DNA of 64,000 nt from Bacteroidota bacterium (GTDB lineage: Bacteria > Bacteroidota > Bacteroidia > Flavobacteriales_E > Vicingaceae): positions 62,001 through 126,000 of the forward strand of contig JABFGJ010000004.1 of the NCBI GenBank assembly GCA_013112545.1, given 5' to 3'. This document shows, piece by piece, positions 50,070-58,993 of this stretch. Position numbers and translations under genes: made by a program. The first letter of the stretch is position 1; every line of letters begins with the position of its first letter. The notes beneath the pieces are model-generated. The model was given only the letters and a program-made list of their open reading frames with translations, was not told where the DNA came from and made no database searches.

Positions 50070-50855
50070 ATGATGCAAAATTGTAAAAACTGTTCAAGTC
50101 CTTATACTGGAAATTACTGCCCACAATGTGGCCAAAAATACATTGATTATCGCTATAATTTAAAAGACTCAATTGCTTGGGCTTTTAATAGTATTTTTAA
50201 TATGGATAAAGGCTTTTTGTTTACCTCTTGGGCTTTGTTATTACGGCCTGGCAAAGTTGTTTCAGAGTTTTTAGATGGCATAACCATAAAATACGCACAT
50301 CCATTTCGAATTATATTTATTTGGGCTACTATTTCGGCAATTATTGGAGTTTGGGCAGGCACTTTTGAAGACACTGGAATTGCCTTAAATGAGGCTATAG
50401 GAGTTGATACCAAATCACTTGAGAATACCAAAAAAACCATGGGATTGATGAAGCAATACATGAGTTTCATTATATTAGGCATGGTTCCGTTTTATGCTTT
50501 TGCAACTTCACTTTTGTTTAAGTCCAAAAAATTAAATTATGCCGAACATTTAATTGTAAACTCTTATGCCTTATCTAGTTCCATCATGGTTGGCATTCCA
50601 CTTACTTTTCTATATGCCTATTTATCTCACGTTTCATTTATTTCTTACATCAATTTTGCTTTGGGAGCTATTATCATTTCTAGAGTTTATGCACAAGTAT
50701 TTCAAGAAAAATGGTATAAAGTTTTTTTCAAGTACATACTTGCTTTCCTAATCACTTTCGTATCATTTTTAATTGTAACCGTTATTATTACAATATTGTA
50801 TTCCTTGATTGTAAAGTTTTTAGGGTTTGAAAACGCATTTATGCCTGCTAAATAG
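50070..50855 (+). CDS. DUF3667 membrane protein with zinc ribbon
   Basis: 261 residues from the first of two ATGs. The N-terminus has two CxxC pairs (CKNCSSPYTGNYCPQCGQK), a zinc ribbon, then LKDSIAWAFNSIFNMDKGF and LLLRPGKVVSEFLDG (the family's amphipathic helix), followed by about four to five membrane helices. This is the DUF3667 layout, of unknown function, common in Bacteroidota. It stands alone and divergent from the TonB-dependent gene. Confidence 0.85.
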   Translation: MMQNCKNCSSPYTGNYCPQCGQKYIDYRYNLKDSIAWAFNSIFNMDKGFLFTSWALLLRPGKVVSEFLDGITIKYAHPFRIIFIWATISAIIGVWAGTFEDTGIALNEAIGVDTKSLENTKKTMGLMKQYMSFIILGMVPFYAFATSLLFKSKKLNYAEHLIVNSYALSSSIMVGIPLTFLYAYLSHVSFISYINFALGAIIISRVYAQVFQEKWYKVFFKYILAFLITFVSFLIVTVIITILYSLIVKFLGFENAFMPAK

Positions 50856-50996: not shown

Positions 50997-53891
50997 TTGA
51001 AAAATATATTTTTCTATTTTCTATTCATTGGATTTTCATCTTTTGCACAATCCGTTGATTCAGAGGGATTAAAAAAAACTGTTCAAGCATTAAAATCTGA
51101 TCCAAGAGGCCCTTATCAAGATATAAAGTGGTTTTGTGTTGACGGTAGTGTTTTGAACCCTCAAGAACGTTGTCCACAACCAGGCGGAGTGCAACACGCA
51201 CGCATTAAAACGACTATTCTTCAACTAGAGAAAAGCAATGGTTTATATTTTAATCAAATATTGACAGGAACCGATTTCGCAGGTTTTTGGGATGAAAAAC
51301 AACTTAACAGCCGCATCAAACAGTATCAATTACATAATTATTTGAAGTTTATTGATGATGGATGGATATATCGTAAAGCCCAATATTATCGTGGGGCATT
51401 GCAAATAGAAGATGAAGAGGCTTGGGGCCTTGAATTCTACCACTGGTTATTAAGTCAAGATAATCAAGTTGCTACAAATTTTTACCTCATTCGACAAAGT
51501 TTGAAAGACATACCTCATAAAGGGGACAACAGTTTAGCTCAACAAATTAGAAGTAGCTCAAAAGTGCTTTCTGAAGAGATTCCATCTTTTATGAATTTAA
51601 GAATAAAAATACATGGCCAACCAGAAGAACAAGATATATTAAAGGTGAAGCATTTTATAGCTTCTAATTCAGCTAAAATATCAGAAAAACAACTGAGTAA
51701 ATTCAATGAATTGGTATCAGATTTAGAAACTTTTTATAGGACGCTAAGCGTTGAAGAACTAATGGCTTATGCCGATAAACTTAATTCTAAAACAGAATTA
51801 CACAATCGTATATTGAACTATTTATCAATATATAAAAGTTCCAAAAATAACCTAAATCGTTTAAGCCAATCTGCTGATTTGATGTGGGAAATAAGATTGG
51901 CAATTAATCAAAAATTAACCGCAACTGAACGATTAGATTTATTAGAATTATCAATAAAATTAGAAGAAATAGCTTTTAAAGAAGTTCCTAAAATTTCTAG
52001 TAATACCTTAAAAGATTTAATGGTTAAAATTAATTCTTTGGCAAAAGCTATAGCCGCAACTGGAGCCATAGAGATATGGGAATGGCAGGAATTAGATACA
52101 AGATTAAAAGGATCAACTTCCGAGTCGATTTCTTTAGCTGCATTAAACGATTATTTATTTGCTTCTAGAAGTGCCGTAGAGTGGGCTGTTGGAATGACTA
52201 AAGCGGTTTACAAAAATGTGATTGATTTATATGCCCCATTTGAACCTCTTGCGCAAGGGTTTATCGACGATCGCATTAGAGCTTCTATTGGTTTAGCTTT
52301 AGGAGAAAGTGTTGGTCAGCTCAACGATTTGATTGCTAAGCAATCAGGATTAAATAATGCTGTTTTTAATTTGAAAAACCAAGGCCAGATTAGAGGATTA
52401 AATCCTGGTTATGCCAAAGGTGAATTGGTTGTGGTAGAAAATGAATCTGATGAAATAGAAGTATCCTCAGACAAAATATACATTTTTCAACAAGCTCCTT
52501 CTGATTTAAAACCCATTGCCGGAATTGCAACTGTAAATGAAGGCAATTTGGTTTCACATGTTCAATTATTAGCTCGAAACTTAGGGATTCCCAATGCTGT
52601 TCTTTCAGATGAAAACATGAGCCAGTTGAAGAATATGGCTGGAGAAATCATTTTTTATTCAGTTAGCCCTTCAGGGACTGTGACGATGAAACTAGAGAAA
52701 GATATGACCGCAATAGAAAATGGATTGTTTGTTAAGAAAGAGCGAAATGCTGATAAAATTGCAGTTGAAGAAAATCAGGTTAAATTGAGTCAAACTAAAT
52801 TATTAAATCTTAGGAATGTTAGAGCAGCTCAATCGGGAAAAATTTGTGGGCCTAAAGCAGCCAATTTAGGACAATTGAAAGCGGTTTTTCCTGATAATGT
52901 TGTAGAAGGATTGGTAATGCCTTTTGGGGTTTTTAAGGCTCATATGGATCAACTTATGCCTGGTAAATCTCAGACGTATTGGGACTTTCTAAATGCTATT
53001 TTTGAAGAAGGTAATCGCATTAGAAATAGCGAAAAAAATGATAAAAAGGGGGATGAATACGAATTGAATCAATTGGTTATTTTAAGAGCTGAAATTTTAA
53101 AAATGCCCTTTTTACCTGAGTTTATAAAAGATTTAGAACAAGGGTTTTTATTAGTCTTAGGAAAGCGAATGGGCAATATACCTGTCTTTTTGAGAAGTGA
53201 TACTAACATGGAGGATTTGAAAGATTTTACAGGAGCTGGATTAAATCTTACAATTTTTAATGCAACTGATAAGGGTAGAATATTGCAAGGGATTCGACAA
53301 GTTTGGGCTTCACCATATAGTGAACGCAGTTACAAATGGCGTCAGAAGTATTTAAGTAATCCAACTTATGTTTTTCCAAGTATTCTTATTATTCCGAGTG
53401 TTGATGTAGATTATAGTGGAGTATTAATTACTAAAGGAATCACTAATTCTAAAGCAGAAGATTTAACTGTTGCATTTAGTAGAGGTGCAGGCGGAGCTGT
53501 TGACGGTCAAGCTGCTGAAACACGCCTAATTAGCACCAATAAAAATATGCTGCTATCTCCATCTAGAGATTTAACATACAACAGCTTACCACTTGTTGGT
53601 GGTTCAAAAAAGATGATTGCAGCTTTTAATCATCCAATTTTAAATGGAGAAAATATAGACAAGATTCGAGCGCTATCGGCTGAACTCAGAAAAACATTAC
53701 CGAATACTCCAGGTATCAGCTCAACAGGGCCTTATGATGTTGAGTTGGGATTTAAAGATAATATGTTGTGGCTTTTTCAAGTACGCCCATTTGTTGAGAA
53801 TAAGAAAGCTCAAGCTTCAACTTATTTAGAATCTATAACTCCTAAAGTCAATTTAGAATTAGAAATTCCAATATCCATAAATTTAAAATAA
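50997..53891 (+). CDS. Exported dikinase-like protein: phosphohistidine domain followed by PEP-synthase-type ATP-grasp domain
   Basis: 964 residues, TTG start giving a clear signal peptide (MKNIFFYFLFIGFSSFAQ). The N-terminal ~440 residues are not recognised and hold WFCVDGSVLNPQERCPQPGG with C47 and C59. A swivelling phosphohistidine-type domain follows (about 465-560) with H521 in GNLVSHVQLLARNLGIP, the active-site His position of PEP synthases and glucan water dikinases. The C-terminal domain (about 610-930) is a PPDK_N ATP-grasp: GPKAANLGQL (K620), FLRSDTNMEDL (R733), SRGAGGAVDGQ, VELGF and QVRP. There is no PEP-binding barrel. The His domain before the ATP-grasp is the order of glucan/phosphoglucan water dikinases, opposite to PEP synthase. 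An ATP-using enzyme with a signal peptide is unexpected. Overlaps the next gene by 1 bp. Confidence 0.85.
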   Translation: MKNIFFYFLFIGFSSFAQSVDSEGLKKTVQALKSDPRGPYQDIKWFCVDGSVLNPQERCPQPGGVQHARIKTTILQLEKSNGLYFNQILTGTDFAGFWDEKQLNSRIKQYQLHNYLKFIDDGWIYRKAQYYRGALQIEDEEAWGLEFYHWLLSQDNQVATNFYLIRQSLKDIPHKGDNSLAQQIRSSSKVLSEEIPSFMNLRIKIHGQPEEQDILKVKHFIASNSAKISEKQLSKFNELVSDLETFYRTLSVEELMAYADKLNSKTELHNRILNYLSIYKSSKNNLNRLSQSADLMWEIRLAINQKLTATERLDLLELSIKLEEIAFKEVPKISSNTLKDLMVKINSLAKAIAATGAIEIWEWQELDTRLKGSTSESISLAALNDYLFASRSAVEWAVGMTKAVYKNVIDLYAPFEPLAQGFIDDRIRASIGLALGESVGQLNDLIAKQSGLNNAVFNLKNQGQIRGLNPGYAKGELVVVENESDEIEVSSDKIYIFQQAPSDLKPIAGIATVNEGNLVSHVQLLARNLGIPNAVLSDENMSQLKNMAGEIIFYSVSPSGTVTMKLEKDMTAIENGLFVKKERNADKIAVEENQVKLSQTKLLNLRNVRAAQSGKICGPKAANLGQLKAVFPDNVVEGLVMPFGVFKAHMDQLMPGKSQTYWDFLNAIFEEGNRIRNSEKNDKKGDEYELNQLVILRAEILKMPFLPEFIKDLEQGFLLVLGKRMGNIPVFLRSDTNMEDLKDFTGAGLNLTIFNATDKGRILQGIRQVWASPYSERSYKWRQKYLSNPTYVFPSILIIPSVDVDYSGVLITKGITNSKAEDLTVAFSRGAGGAVDGQAAETRLISTNKNMLLSPSRDLTYNSLPLVGGSKKMIAAFNHPILNGENIDKIRALSAELRKTLPNTPGISSTGPYDVELGFKDNMLWLFQVRPFVENKKAQASTYLESITPKVNLELEIPISINLK

Positions 53892-55147
53892 TGAAGATAG
53901 TTAAACCCAAATTTATACTCACCTTTTTTTTCTGTCTCTTTTTTACTTTTTCAGGAGGTTATCCTATTGATGGATATGAATACAGTCGAATTCGTAGGTT
54001 GTTAAGACTACAAGAAATACTTGACGGAAAAACAAAAGAGGCAAAACCATTGCCTGGAATGTTAAAATCTATAAATGACATTCAATTAAATTTATTAGGT
54101 AAAAGAGGTGACAGTTTAGAAACATTACCAGCTCCGGATTTAAAACTTCAAAAAGCTATAAATGGATTATTTCCAGGATTAAATGAAAGTTATTCTGTTA
54201 CTATCCTAGACATCACAGAAGGTCGGCCAACTCGGCTTGCACAGCGACAAGAAAATAGGGGATACCAACCTGGCAGTGTCGGTAAGTTAGCCGTATTAAC
54301 AGGCTTATTTGTTGAACTAGAAAAAATTTATCCCGAATCTTTTGAAGATCGAATTACGCTATTGTGCAACCGTTTTGTAAAAGCAGGTGCATGGGGCTTA
54401 ACAGATAGTCATACTGTTCCGCATTATAATCCTGAAACGAAAGAATTTAAAAAACGAACAGTAATAGCAAGCGATATTTTTTCTTTGTTTGAATGGGCTG
54501 ATCACATGGTAAGTGTTAGCAACAACGGCGCAGCAAGTATATTGTGGAGAGAAGTAGTATTAATGCGAGTTTTTGGAGATAAATACCCTAATTTAACCCA
54601 AGAAGAAGCCGATCAATATTTTAAAGAAACACCAAAAAATGAGCTAAGTACAATTGCAAACGAAGTTGTGAACCAACCATTAAGAGAATTGGGAATTGGG
54701 GAAAATGAATGGCGATTAGGAAGTTTTTTTACTCGTGGTGCTAGTGGAATTATTCCGGGTAAAGGAGGTAGCATTGGGTCAACACTTGGCTTAATGAAAT
54801 ATTTAATAGCCATGGAACGAGGGAAAATAGTGGATCAAAATTCCAGTTTAGAAATAAAAAGGCTTTTGTATCAAACGGATCGTAGAATTCGTTACGCTTC
54901 ATCGCCTGCGCTAAAAGAAGCTGCCGTATATTTTAAATCGGGTAGTTTGTATAAATGCAAACCTGAAGTGAATTTTAAATGTGGAAAATACATGGGAAAT
55001 GTAGATAATTATATGAATTCAGTCGCGATAGTTGAACAACCAAATGGAGCGACTTACATTGTCTGTTTAATGAGTAATGTGTTGCGTAAAAACTCAAATT
55101 TAGATCACTTAAACATTGCTACAAGCATCGACCGAATTATGAAGTAA
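53891..55147 (+). CDS. Exported SxxK serine hydrolase (beta-lactamase/PBP-like), partner of the dikinase-like gene
   Basis: 418 residues with an N-terminal hydrophobic signal (FILTFFFCLFFTFSGG). The class-A beta-lactamase/DD-peptidase motifs are all seen: SVGK at 129-132 (SxxK), SNN at 210-212 (SxN), and KSG at 349-351 (KTG equivalent) in YFKSGSLYK. The family includes beta-lactamases, D,D-peptidases and esterases; there is no sign that this one acts on antibiotics, and it is longer than a beta-lactamase, with an extra ~85-residue N-terminal part and an insertion between SxN and KSG. It shares one base with the dikinase-like gene (TAATG), so both are made together. Confidence 0.86.
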   Translation: MKIVKPKFILTFFFCLFFTFSGGYPIDGYEYSRIRRLLRLQEILDGKTKEAKPLPGMLKSINDIQLNLLGKRGDSLETLPAPDLKLQKAINGLFPGLNESYSVTILDITEGRPTRLAQRQENRGYQPGSVGKLAVLTGLFVELEKIYPESFEDRITLLCNRFVKAGAWGLTDSHTVPHYNPETKEFKKRTVIASDIFSLFEWADHMVSVSNNGAASILWREVVLMRVFGDKYPNLTQEEADQYFKETPKNELSTIANEVVNQPLRELGIGENEWRLGSFFTRGASGIIPGKGGSIGSTLGLMKYLIAMERGKIVDQNSSLEIKRLLYQTDRRIRYASSPALKEAAVYFKSGSLYKCKPEVNFKCGKYMGNVDNYMNSVAIVEQPNGATYIVCLMSNVLRKNSNLDHLNIATSIDRIMK

Positions 55148-55191
55148 AAACTGAGAATACCATTGCTTTTTGTATTCGATATCAGATAAGT

Positions 55192-58023
55192 TTACGACTC
55201 CAATTGCATTAAAGCATTGTTTGCATAGTCTCTTATTTTTAAATTTTTATCAAGCAGTAAGTCCTTCAGTAAAGCTTTGTATCTTGGGTCTTTAAGTTGC
55301 CCGATTAGAAAAATTACGGCTAGTTTTAGCTTGGTGTCATTCTGATTTAAAATAAGCTTAAAACACTCATATTCACCCATTACTTTTAAATCTAAATCAT
55401 GTAGTATTTCTTCGCTAATAGAATCGAGTATAGAAATTTCAACTATTGGAATTAGTAACCTTTTTAAATTGCCTTCTAATAAATTATCTAAATATTCAAT
55501 AGCATAAATTCGCATGTCGGCATGTTCACTCTGAATTGCTTCATAAGCTTTACTCATTTCTTCGGGTGGATAGGTAAGCCCTAATAAACCAAAAATGCGT
55601 TCTAAATGACTTTCCATTCTGCTTTCAAGCAATTTCATCAGGCTTTTTCGTGACTCTTCCAGTGAAATGTTTGGAAGGGCTTTCTTATCTTTTTTGTGAA
55701 AACTAACTAAAACCTGAGTGTGCATCATATTCAAGGTTTGCAAGTAAATTTTGCACTCCGTATTTATTTTATCTACAACATCTCTTTTTCGAATGTTGAG
55801 GGTAGGGAAATTGCTGTGAATTTTATTTAAAGAACGTATGCTTTCCAATCGTACTGCTAAATCTTCATGATCTAGTAATTTAAATAATTCGTTTACAGCT
55901 TTTTGATTTTCAAATAACTCTAAAACACTCGGTATAAAATGCAAGGAGTTTTGAGGAATTTCATTGGTTCTAATTTTTTTTCCAAGCTCATCAATCATTA
56001 AAAAACCATATTGGGAAAGTGCATTTTTTGCTTCATTTCTATAAATCTTATTACCTAGCAAATCAATAAATGGATTAATAAATCGTTCATGAAGAGTAAA
56101 AGCCGCAGAAACAATAGCTTGCTTTACTACAATTGGATTTTCGTGTGTAAAGTATAATTCTAGGGTTTCTAAATCTTCGTTTTGTTGCAATAATGCCCTG
56201 ATTTTTATGGTGATGATTTGAAGAAATTGCCTCAAATCTTCATCTTTCGTATTTTCAATTACTTCGGTTTTTTTAGCTAGTTTAGTTTGTATAAGGCTTA
56301 AGTTTCGGATTGTGAAACTACTTTTCGAATTTTCAACTAATGCTAATAATGCAGATGAACTGATGTATTCATCTGTATTATTGAGGTATTTTTCAATTAA
56401 AAACTGCTTGCCATCATTTGCAAATTTGAGTAAATAAATAAATGCTTCTACTCGAATGTGTTCATCTTCACTTTTTAGCAGCTCATGAATTGCTTGAGTT
56501 TCGATAATGGGTTCTTTATAATAACGGAGTATTTTAATTGCTTTGGCAGCTACAACTTTATCTTCATGATGAATTAAAGGAATAAGATGCTTCTGAAATC
56601 GAGGGTCTGGGGTGTGTTTTAACTGCTCAAGTAAAAATAATATTTGAGGAATTTTATTGCTAGAAACAATTTTTTGGAAACTATCGAATACGGTCTTCGA
56701 CTTATTCAATTTAAGTGTCGCTTTTTCTTCCTTTTTGGATCTATTTAATAATTGAAAAGAATTTAAGTATTCCTTTCTTACTTTAGAAACCAACCATATC
56801 CAAACACCACTTAGAATAAAAATAGCTAGGCTAACGACTTCCGCACCTAAATCCAAGCCATTGATAATAAATATCAATATAAAACCGGCTATTCCGGTAG
56901 CTACACTATCTACTACAACATCGATAAAGGTTTTTGTGCGTTTTTTAATCTCAAAAGGAATGGGTAAACCTAAAAGTTCTACCGCTGATTTATTGACACT
57001 TTGTTTTAAACTTCCATCTAATGCTTTAAGAATAACCACAGCCCATAATTCGGGGAAAGTAAAAGTGATGATTGCTCCGAATGCAATTCCTAATGGTAAA
57101 ATTAACAATGACTTTCCTACGCCATAATTGCCCACAACCCATCGAGTTACTAGCAATTGTACTATTAAAGAGATTAAATTAAAATTACTTGACCAAAACG
57201 CAAAAAATTGAGCGAGATCTTCGGGGTTTGTGATATAACTAGAAGCTATGTCGCTGAATTGATATTCTACCAATTTGGCCACTAAAACACTCATGCCCAA
57301 AATAGCTGCGAGATAAGTTAACAGCTTTGATTTCAGAATTGATTTTACAGGATTATCACTGATTATAGAAATCCGTTTTTTTCGTTTAAACAGATTGTAT
57401 TTACTGGCACTTTTTTTCCAAATCATTAAATTGATTGGAATACATAAAATAAGTAGAAAAGCAGCGATAAATAATAAGGGCTCGGTACCAACAAAGGAGA
57501 CAATTATAGAAGTGAGGTAACCACCTAATATACCCCCTGAAATAGCTCCAATGCCGATAAAACTAAAAATTCTTTTGGCTTCTCGAACATTGAAAACGAC
57601 ATTCGCTAAAATCCAAAATTGAGAAGCACTGAGTACTGCAAAAATGGATGTCCAGATGTAGAAAAGGTAGATAACCCAACCGACATTAAATTGAAAATAT
57701 AACAATACGCCAAAAGCAATCAATGCAATGGCAGAAATAGTTAAGGTTCTAAGGATTACCGTAATTAATTTAAGCCGTTTTAAGGTTACCGAATAAACTG
57801 TAGATATTAGAATAGCAATAACAGCTAAAACAACATAGGCTTGTGGCAAACTTTCTACTCCAAACCGATTGATAAATAAAGCGTTAACTATTGGTTTGAC
57901 AATTAGTAAAGTGGCAATAATTAAGAATATAGACGCTTGTAAGAGAAAGGCAATTTTGAATTCACCTTTTCTTATGTCAAAAGTTTTTTGAATCAGTTTC
58001 TTTATCCCTTCTTCTACATTCAT
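55192..58023 (-). CDS. ATP/ADP translocase (NTT)-like carrier fused to HEAT-like repeats
   Basis: 943 residues. Residues 1 to about 430 form ~12 membrane helices resembling the nucleotide transporter (NTT/Tlc) family of organelles and intracellular bacteria: FLLQASIFLIIATLLIVKP with K43, INRFGVESLPQAYVVL (compare GAExxP in NTTs), and NKSAVELLGLPIPFEIKKRTKTFIDVVVDS in parts (compare K...E..YIPL...K.K...DV). The rest (about 440-943) is helical HEAT-like repeats, e.g. FQKHLIPLIHHEDKVVAAKA, HIRVEAFIYLLKFA, HADMRIYAIEYLDNLL. HEAT-fused NTT homologues occur in free-living bacteria; the transported molecule is not settled. It follows the SxxK lipoprotein gene by 13 bp. Confidence 0.82.
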   Translation of the reverse strand: MNVEEGIKKLIQKTFDIRKGEFKIAFLLQASIFLIIATLLIVKPIVNALFINRFGVESLPQAYVVLAVIAILISTVYSVTLKRLKLITVILRTLTISAIALIAFGVLLYFQFNVGWVIYLFYIWTSIFAVLSASQFWILANVVFNVREAKRIFSFIGIGAISGGILGGYLTSIIVSFVGTEPLLFIAAFLLILCIPINLMIWKKSASKYNLFKRKKRISIISDNPVKSILKSKLLTYLAAILGMSVLVAKLVEYQFSDIASSYITNPEDLAQFFAFWSSNFNLISLIVQLLVTRWVVGNYGVGKSLLILPLGIAFGAIITFTFPELWAVVILKALDGSLKQSVNKSAVELLGLPIPFEIKKRTKTFIDVVVDSVATGIAGFILIFIINGLDLGAEVVSLAIFILSGVWIWLVSKVRKEYLNSFQLLNRSKKEEKATLKLNKSKTVFDSFQKIVSSNKIPQILFLLEQLKHTPDPRFQKHLIPLIHHEDKVVAAKAIKILRYYKEPIIETQAIHELLKSEDEHIRVEAFIYLLKFANDGKQFLIEKYLNNTDEYISSSALLALVENSKSSFTIRNLSLIQTKLAKKTEVIENTKDEDLRQFLQIITIKIRALLQQNEDLETLELYFTHENPIVVKQAIVSAAFTLHERFINPFIDLLGNKIYRNEAKNALSQYGFLMIDELGKKIRTNEIPQNSLHFIPSVLELFENQKAVNELFKLLDHEDLAVRLESIRSLNKIHSNFPTLNIRKRDVVDKINTECKIYLQTLNMMHTQVLVSFHKKDKKALPNISLEESRKSLMKLLESRMESHLERIFGLLGLTYPPEEMSKAYEAIQSEHADMRIYAIEYLDNLLEGNLKRLLIPIVEISILDSISEEILHDLDLKVMGEYECFKLILNQNDTKLKLAVIFLIGQLKDPRYKALLKDLLLDKNLKIRDYANNALMQLES

Positions 58024-58036
58024 TTTAACTCTAAAC

Positions 58037-58993
58037 TTATTGAGTTGTAGTGTGTTTAGCTATTTTTAGCACCTTTTCAATTGGGTTTACTAATTGTCTA
58101 ATTATTTGTTCGCCATTCTTATCATCGATTAGAGCTACTAAAATATACCTTCTTTTGCCGTCTTCCCATACGAGAATTGAATCTGCATGAAAGGTAGTCC
58201 ATGAGCCCGATTTACGATATAATTTGGCTTTTGGAGCTATTTTTTCTAATGTATTCACAAACTTATGATGGATTTCAGGCTTTTCCATGTACTTTAACAT
58301 TTGAGTGGAACGTTCTCTATTGACAAGCCTACCAAAGGCTAAATCATAATAAAAGCGACAAACTTGATCTACTGTGGCTGCATGGCTTATGCCTTTTAAG
58401 GGTTCTGGAACTCTTTTGCCCGAAGCTGCATATCTTTTACCAACCCACAAGCCTCCGCCATTGTCTTTGTCATAAAATCTGTAGGCAGTATCTTGCATTA
58501 CCGAAGCAATTTTTTCAAAACCCAATAAATCAATTACTCGCGTAGTTGCTGCATTATTGCTTTTGCTAATCATGATTCTTAAATCGGCTCTTAATGCTTT
58601 TGTATCCTCAATTTCTTTTTTTTCTATAGCATCCATTGCGGCAAGCAAAACAGCAATCTTAGGCAAACTTGCTGCATACATCATAAAATCACCATTGATG
58701 GCTGCATATTTTATATGGTCAACATCGTATAAATCAACAACTCCAAAAGCCATTTTTTTGTTTTTAACGAGCTCAGCCCATTTCGGATTTTTATTAATAA
58801 TCTGCTGTAAACCGGCTTGCAACTCTTCATCTTTAGTGTCTAAAAGAGGAACAAAATGACTATCGTCTAGCGGTAAGGAAATGCTCGTTTTTTTTGTTTT
58901 AGATTCTGTCTGATTGGTTTGACTATCGGCACAAGAATAAAAAAGCACTAAGAAGCTGAATAAGAGAATGGTTTTATATTTATTTTGATTCAT
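58037..58993 (-). CDS. SxxK serine hydrolase lipoprotein (class A beta-lactamase-like)
   Basis: 318 residues from the ATG at 58993; the alternative ATG at 59047 would give an N-terminus without a usable signal and lies upstream of a likely promoter. Lipoprotein signal ends VLFYSC (Cys about 21). Active-site motifs are SLPK (about 109-112), SNN (about 145-147), and KSG (about 261-263) in YRKSGSW. The motif spacing is that of class A beta-lactamases and related peptidases; real substrate unknown. It is first in a two-gene unit with the NTT-like carrier (13-bp gap), mirroring the plus-strand pair where another SxxK hydrolase accompanies the dikinase. Confidence 0.87.
   Translation of the reverse strand: MNQNKYKTILLFSFLVLFYSCADSQTNQTESKTKKTSISLPLDDSHFVPLLDTKDEELQAGLQQIINKNPKWAELVKNKKMAFGVVDLYDVDHIKYAAINGDFMMYAASLPKIAVLLAAMDAIEKKEIEDTKALRADLRIMISKSNNAATTRVIDLLGFEKIASVMQDTAYRFYDKDNGGGLWVGKRYAASGKRVPEPLKGISHAATVDQVCRFYYDLAFGRLVNRERSTQMLKYMEKPEIHHKFVNTLEKIAPKAKLYRKSGSWTTFHADSILVWEDGKRRYILVALIDDKNGEQIIRQLVNPIEKVLKIAKHTTTQ

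Follow-up and report, generated by a model that had tools for sequence, protein, structure and literature searches.

In silico analysis of a 64,000-nucleotide stretch from a Bacteroidota bacterium of the Vicingaceae (assembly GCA_013112545.1, contig JABFGJ010000004.1, positions 62,001 to 126,000; hereafter the window) has revealed four genes that almost certainly constitute one functional unit, comprising an exported dikinase (DIK), two exported SxxK enzymes (SXK1 and SXK2) and a carrier in which an NTT membrane domain is followed by HEAT repeats. We tentatively propose that they form an accessory envelope pathway built on extracytoplasmic phosphotransfer, probably spread horizontally among Bacteroidota, many marine members of which have the genes side by side. 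On the plus strand, DIK (50997..53891; 964 residues from a TTG start, identified from the list of open reading frames (ORFs) and a Pfam PPDK_N match) overlaps by 1 bp (TAATG) with SXK1 (53891..55147), assigned to the PBP-A/class A beta-lactamase fold by a fold model and motifs. On the minus strand, SXK2 (58037..58993; assigned by Pfam Beta-lactamase2 and motifs) is separated by 13 bp from the carrier (55192..58023; 943 residues, identified from the ORF list, Pfam, profile search and residue mapping), the two pairs being convergent with 44 bp between their stops. The four ORFs, the overlap and the gap lie where a preliminary description of the window had placed them, and the identities it gave to the four proteins were matched by Pfam or profile hits.

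Scanning 84,980 species by alignment, with a single genome standing for each, we obtained 419 encoding loci, of which we kept the best 80 and added 10 from a draw of Bacteroidota genomes. All four genes are present at 70 of these 90 loci, 69 of them with the arrangement of the window and one with the carrier flipped; two of the 69 carry a second SXK2 copy (in tandem, L032 and L089). Counted singly, the four genes are found at 90, 88, 76 and 73 loci, with the next most frequent neighbour at 17. Within the 70 complete loci, the distance between DIK and SXK1 is 50 bp or less in 66, and the convergent ends overlap in 40.

We also surveyed 296 Bacteroidota genomes, the same set for all genes, showing that full-length DIK, SXK1 and SXK2 have identical distributions, each being confined to the same 11 genomes from 10 genera. 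Were genomes independent, such identical presence would have a probability of about 10^-19.5 for each partner, a value inflated by shared ancestry and not to be taken literally. A close ortholog of the carrier accompanies DIK in 9 of the 11, the remaining two (G228 and G244) having only distant NTTs elsewhere; with any NTT counted, the carrier ortholog or another one is present in 11/11 genomes with DIK vs. 21/285 without it (Fisher 4e-12, again inflated by kinship). This co-occurrence is stronger than the preliminary description had claimed. Pairwise divergences are likewise correlated (r of 0.95 for DIK and SXK1, 0.89 for DIK and SXK2, and 0.72 for DIK and the carrier, all inflated by shared ancestry). 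The genes are also retained when they are apart, as evidenced by: 1) genome G223, where the four are scattered over the genome and all present; 2) the 11 named genomes whose locus lacks the carrier or SXK2, or has the carrier kilobases away, in all of which both genes were found, with carrier and SXK2 as a neighbouring pair in 10 and, in G350, SXK2 at the locus and a more distant copy of the carrier (45%) elsewhere. In some genomes with a split cluster (e.g. L102), linkage is possibly hidden by a contig end. Because all four genes are kept after the cluster breaks up, their co-occurrence is not explained by physical linkage alone, and the link among them is functional. As to its origin, none of the 45 genomes examined from the family to which the window belongs has DIK or SXK1, and the only NTTs detected in them are distant, but marine Flavobacteriaceae (e.g. 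Maribacter, Arenibacter and Winogradskyella) have DIK homologs of 50-55% identity, which makes horizontal spread of the module among Bacteroidota likely.

DIK matches Pfam PPDK_N (2.6e-15) and, weakly, PEP-utilizers. A Sec signal peptide at about residues 1-18 was recognized from its hydrophobic core and cleavage-site motif; the core recurs in 47/47 DIK sequences and a Q-rule-like cleavage site, of the kind that PMC5837995 describes for Bacteroidota, in 38/47. Since the core is in all homologs and the site in most, DIK is predicted to be exported. Three parts follow on the plus strand in a structure model of mean pLDDT (predicted local distance difference test) 81.6: a mostly helical N-terminal region (51051..52352, about residues 19-452), presumed to bind the acceptor and without any Pfam family match; a phosphohistidine swivel domain (52353..52700, about residues 453-568) with H521 at 52557-52559; and an ATP-grasp domain (52788..53831, about residues 598-945) with K620, R733, T752, E916, Q928 and R930. 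Across two alignments, one of 11 sequences and one of 47 (58 in total, the window's sequence counted in both), H521, K620, R733, E916, Q928 and R930 are invariant and T752 is kept in 57/58, and two cysteines of the N-terminal region are also conserved (C47 in 58/58, C59 in 57/58); the catalytic histidine and lysine, whose fate in homologs the preliminary description had raised, are thus retained throughout. Both hallmarks of the PPDK/dikinase superfamily, the catalytic-histidine domain and the Lys/Arg/Thr/Glu set of the ATP-grasp, are therefore present, and we consider it probable, judging from these residues and the export signal, that DIK is a catalytically active extracytoplasmic dikinase.

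Among known members of the PPDK/PEP synthase superfamily, the rifampin phosphotransferase RPH-Lm resembles DIK in both its ATP-grasp (5hv1, Z 28.8 over 307 residues) and its His domain (Z 9.2 over 105 residues), and the equivalents of its K22, R117, T136 and H825 are conserved. The RPH counterparts of K620, R733 and T752 are required for rifampin phosphorylation, while that of E916 is not (PMC4844700). In contrast to RPH-Lm and PPDK, DIK is a predicted secreted protein, matches no PEP/pyruvate or rifampin domain, and has a permuted order, with the N-terminal region, His domain and C-terminal ATP-grasp in that sequence in all aligned homologs. In plant GWD, too, the phosphohistidine domain precedes a C-terminal nucleotide-binding domain, an order DIK shares with GWD/PWD. 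Beyond this order, 8/47 DIK sequences gave a weak Pfam match to GWD1_pHisD (PF22973; best E 0.061). DIK is bacterial and secreted, and the Pfam matches of DIK and its homologs include no starch- or carbohydrate-binding family. Identity with a known resistance enzyme or PEP synthase was rejected, NCBIfam matches being far below cut-offs. Five genomes (L013-L016 and L018) encode another family of exported dikinases with permuted order, about 630 residues long, whose His and ATP-grasp residues appear to be intact; no TLC/NTT carrier was detectable in these genomes.

SXK1 and SXK2 both match Pfam Beta-lactamase2 (9.5e-7 and 2.5e-19, respectively) and keep in all sequences the motifs S129xxK132, S210xN212 and K349SG351 (SXK1) and S109xxK112, S145xN147 and K261SG263 (SXK2). 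These SxxK, SxN and KSG motifs are shared with PBP-A of Thermosynechococcus (Tll2115) and class A beta-lactamases, as is, for the SXK1 model only, the fold (2j7v_A, Z 25.1, rmsd (root-mean-square deviation) 2.8 over 256 residues); for SXK2, PBP-A entries are the only matches among PDB profiles, and weak ones. Identity to Tll2115/class A enzymes is about 14%, and SXK1 adds an N-terminal segment that begins with YPIDGY, as well as a pair of conserved cysteines. The preliminary description had the SxxK motif of SXK2 right, but its lipoprotein assignment does not extend to the family, as a lipobox-like motif occurs in 5/39 homologs and most resemble signal-peptidase-I substrates. SXK1 also harbors a D/N-E-W-R-L-G stretch (window 54704-54721, residues 272-277) whose E273 is present in 38/40 sequences; by its motif, E273xxLG may correspond to the omega-loop Glu166 of class A beta-lactamases. 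Motif inspection revealed no clear omega-loop Glu candidate in SXK2.

The carrier comprises, on the minus strand, a membrane domain (56749..58023, residues 1-425) recognized by its profile match to Arabidopsis NTT1 (4.4e-13) and containing a K250 and D/E253 pair, and a HEAT-repeat region (55195..56631, residues 465-943; HEAT_2 1.2e-20); Pfam TLC is borderline (20 bits vs. a 21-bit cut-off, and 22 bits in another search). Hydropathy and the positive-inside rule predict both ends and the HEAT domain to be cytoplasmic. This architecture is that of the NTT-HEAT fusions of Major et al. 2017, which are widespread in free-living bacteria, uncharacterised and of roles then called unknown, the characterised relatives in the NTT family transporting nucleotides or NAD (PMC5381601). 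AtNTT1 requires four charged residues, K155, E245, E385 and K527 (PMC10654386, PMC3306366); K155E abolishes binding of ADP and ATP, and K527E that of ATP (PMC3306366). When the carrier was mapped onto AtNTT1, a single numbering offset fitted all four reference residues, and of the substrate residues on which the preliminary description had turned, the acid at E385 is kept, whereas K155 is replaced by a hydrophobic residue or, in one carrier, by Gly, E245 by Ala or Ser and K527 by Thr, rarely Gly. The module carriers thus differ from canonical ATP/ADP exchanging NTTs. K155 and K527 are kept by none of the other NTT-HEATs compared either, and what sets the module carriers apart from these is the residue at K527, the tie to three exported enzymes, and a diagnostic basic residue three positions ahead of the conserved acid; every module carrier has it (K250, with Arg in a single one), and no other NTT in the comparison has one at that place.

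From these features we infer a pathway in which periplasmic catalysis, acceptor, cargo and order of steps would be as follows. DIK would be secreted across the inner membrane and act as a dikinase, ATP phosphorylating H521 with release of AMP and Pi; an acceptor bound by the N-terminal region would then receive the phosphate from the swivel domain. SXK1 and SXK2 would serve the same pathway as exported hydrolases or transferases that work through an acyl-enzyme, and for them a peptide- or amide-type envelope substrate is a plausible though tentative choice. The NTT-HEAT protein would be the inner-membrane carrier of the pathway's charged small molecule, with a cavity differing from that of classical ATP/ADP exchangers and a HEAT domain that remains cytoplasmic. 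To our knowledge, NTT is the only bacterial inner-membrane carrier family known to move ATP. Recognizing that a secreted dikinase needs ATP and that its near-obligate partner belongs to this family, we favor a nucleotide couple serving DIK (ATP out, AMP or ADP back) as the most likely single cargo, while rating even this assignment as less likely than not. Several observations weigh against this scheme: 1) module carriers lack the equivalents of K155, E245 and K527; 2) some genomes in which no NTT could be detected encode exported permuted dikinases; 3) G228 and G244 have DIK, SXK1 and SXK2 without a module-type carrier; 4) of the four members, the carrier shows the loosest co-evolution (correlations of 0.63-0.72); 5) the genomes compared are not statistically independent. 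The first two in particular weaken the case for a nucleotide, and the second shows that an exported dikinase can do without an NTT. The preliminary description's view of the carrier as supplier of periplasmic ATP gains from retention alongside DIK even when unlinked and is weakened by the loss of three of the four charged residues; the exopolysaccharide or peptidoglycan substrates it suggested are, like that mechanism, hypothetical. Our provisional preference is for a secreted dikinase with its own NTT-HEAT carrier, delivering ATP or collecting product, together with two PBP-like enzymes that would modify an envelope component.

A different direction of transport is rather unlikely but survives best among the alternatives: a compound from the envelope or the environment would be phosphorylated and cleaved by the exported enzymes, and the carrier would import the charged product, the ATP outside coming from leakage or the environment. 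Loss of both nucleotide-binding lysines fits such an importer, as do the usual pairing of NTT and SXK2 in split clusters, expected of a hydrolase and its product importer, the exported metallophosphoesterases and Omp85 proteins that adjoin other Bacteroidota NTTs, and the fact that periplasmic ATP has been measured in E. coli (PMC7432876); the cargoes of characterised NTT relatives, nucleotides or NAD (PMC5381601), speak against it. It is improbable that the module synthesizes or tailors a secondary metabolite or envelope conjugate outside the cytoplasm, with DIK as a ligase acting via a phosphorylated intermediate (cf. PigC/RedH) and the SxxK enzymes as acyl or peptidyl transferases. The NCBIfam matches of the ATP domain do include PigC and RedH, far below cut-off, and the module is accessory and patchy, but it holds only four genes and the 90 loci show no biosynthetic neighbours.

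The resemblance of DIK and the SxxK enzymes to RPH and PBP-A/class A beta-lactamases, their closest folds, brings to mind inactivation of antibiotics or toxins, with DIK phosphorylating a drug in the manner of rifampin phosphotransferase, the SxxK enzymes hydrolysing others and the carrier serving as an efflux pump. Patchy distribution and the SXK1 ExxLG stretch, which could match the omega-loop Glu, agree with this idea. We nonetheless judge it more improbable still, given that no resistance family scored above cut-off in NCBIfam, that near-obligate co-inheritance of four parts is unusual for resistance genes, and that the carrier is outside known efflux families; there is also no match to the RPH drug-binding domain, a result inconclusive for the N-terminal region of DIK, which was not folded alone. 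Horizontal transfer alone can hold neighbours together, but that the four genes merely travel together with unrelated jobs is very hard to credit and was rejected, since they remain phyletically together when physically separated in G223 and the named genomes.

Returning to the preferred scheme of a secreted dikinase with its own carrier, a review describes the route of ATP into the periplasm as unknown (PMC7432876). Descriptions of ATP-dependent chemistry outside the bacterial cytoplasm are rare, since no dedicated source of ATP is known in that location, and a secreted dikinase that retains its catalytic residues and is co-inherited with an NTT-family carrier renders the question of periplasmic ATP directly testable; it would also give NTT-HEAT proteins a biological context. 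No paper on the four-gene module was found in the open-access literature on bacterial GWD homologs, periplasmic dikinases and NTT-HEAT proteins. The components belong to known families, and their combination and extracytoplasmic location appear undescribed in the literature searched.

Around the locus, a DUF3667 membrane protein (Pfam; window 50070-50855) is encoded immediately before DIK, in the same orientation, and is not among the recurring neighbours at homologous loci. Promoter and terminator predictions at the locus were not above those from shuffles. Two further candidates were rejected: a plasmid-borne cassette (plasmid matches only to the dikinase domain, 22% coverage) and anti-phage defence (PADLOC matches weak and confined to the carrier HEAT region). 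Elsewhere, NTT or NTT-HEAT genes adjoin exported proteins at L116-L119 and L128, among them calcineurin-like metallophosphoesterases and Omp85 proteins (tested with Pfam for L117, L118 and L128), and L128:6696-10457 joins these two domains; NTT carriers may generally partner exported phospho-enzymes. Longer NTT-HEAT genes of about 1000 residues (L120, L122 and L129) have a recurring neighbourhood with a candidate small acetyltransferase-like ORF and large exported ORFs, the latter being a TonB-dependent receptor in L120 and a hybrid sensor kinase in L122.

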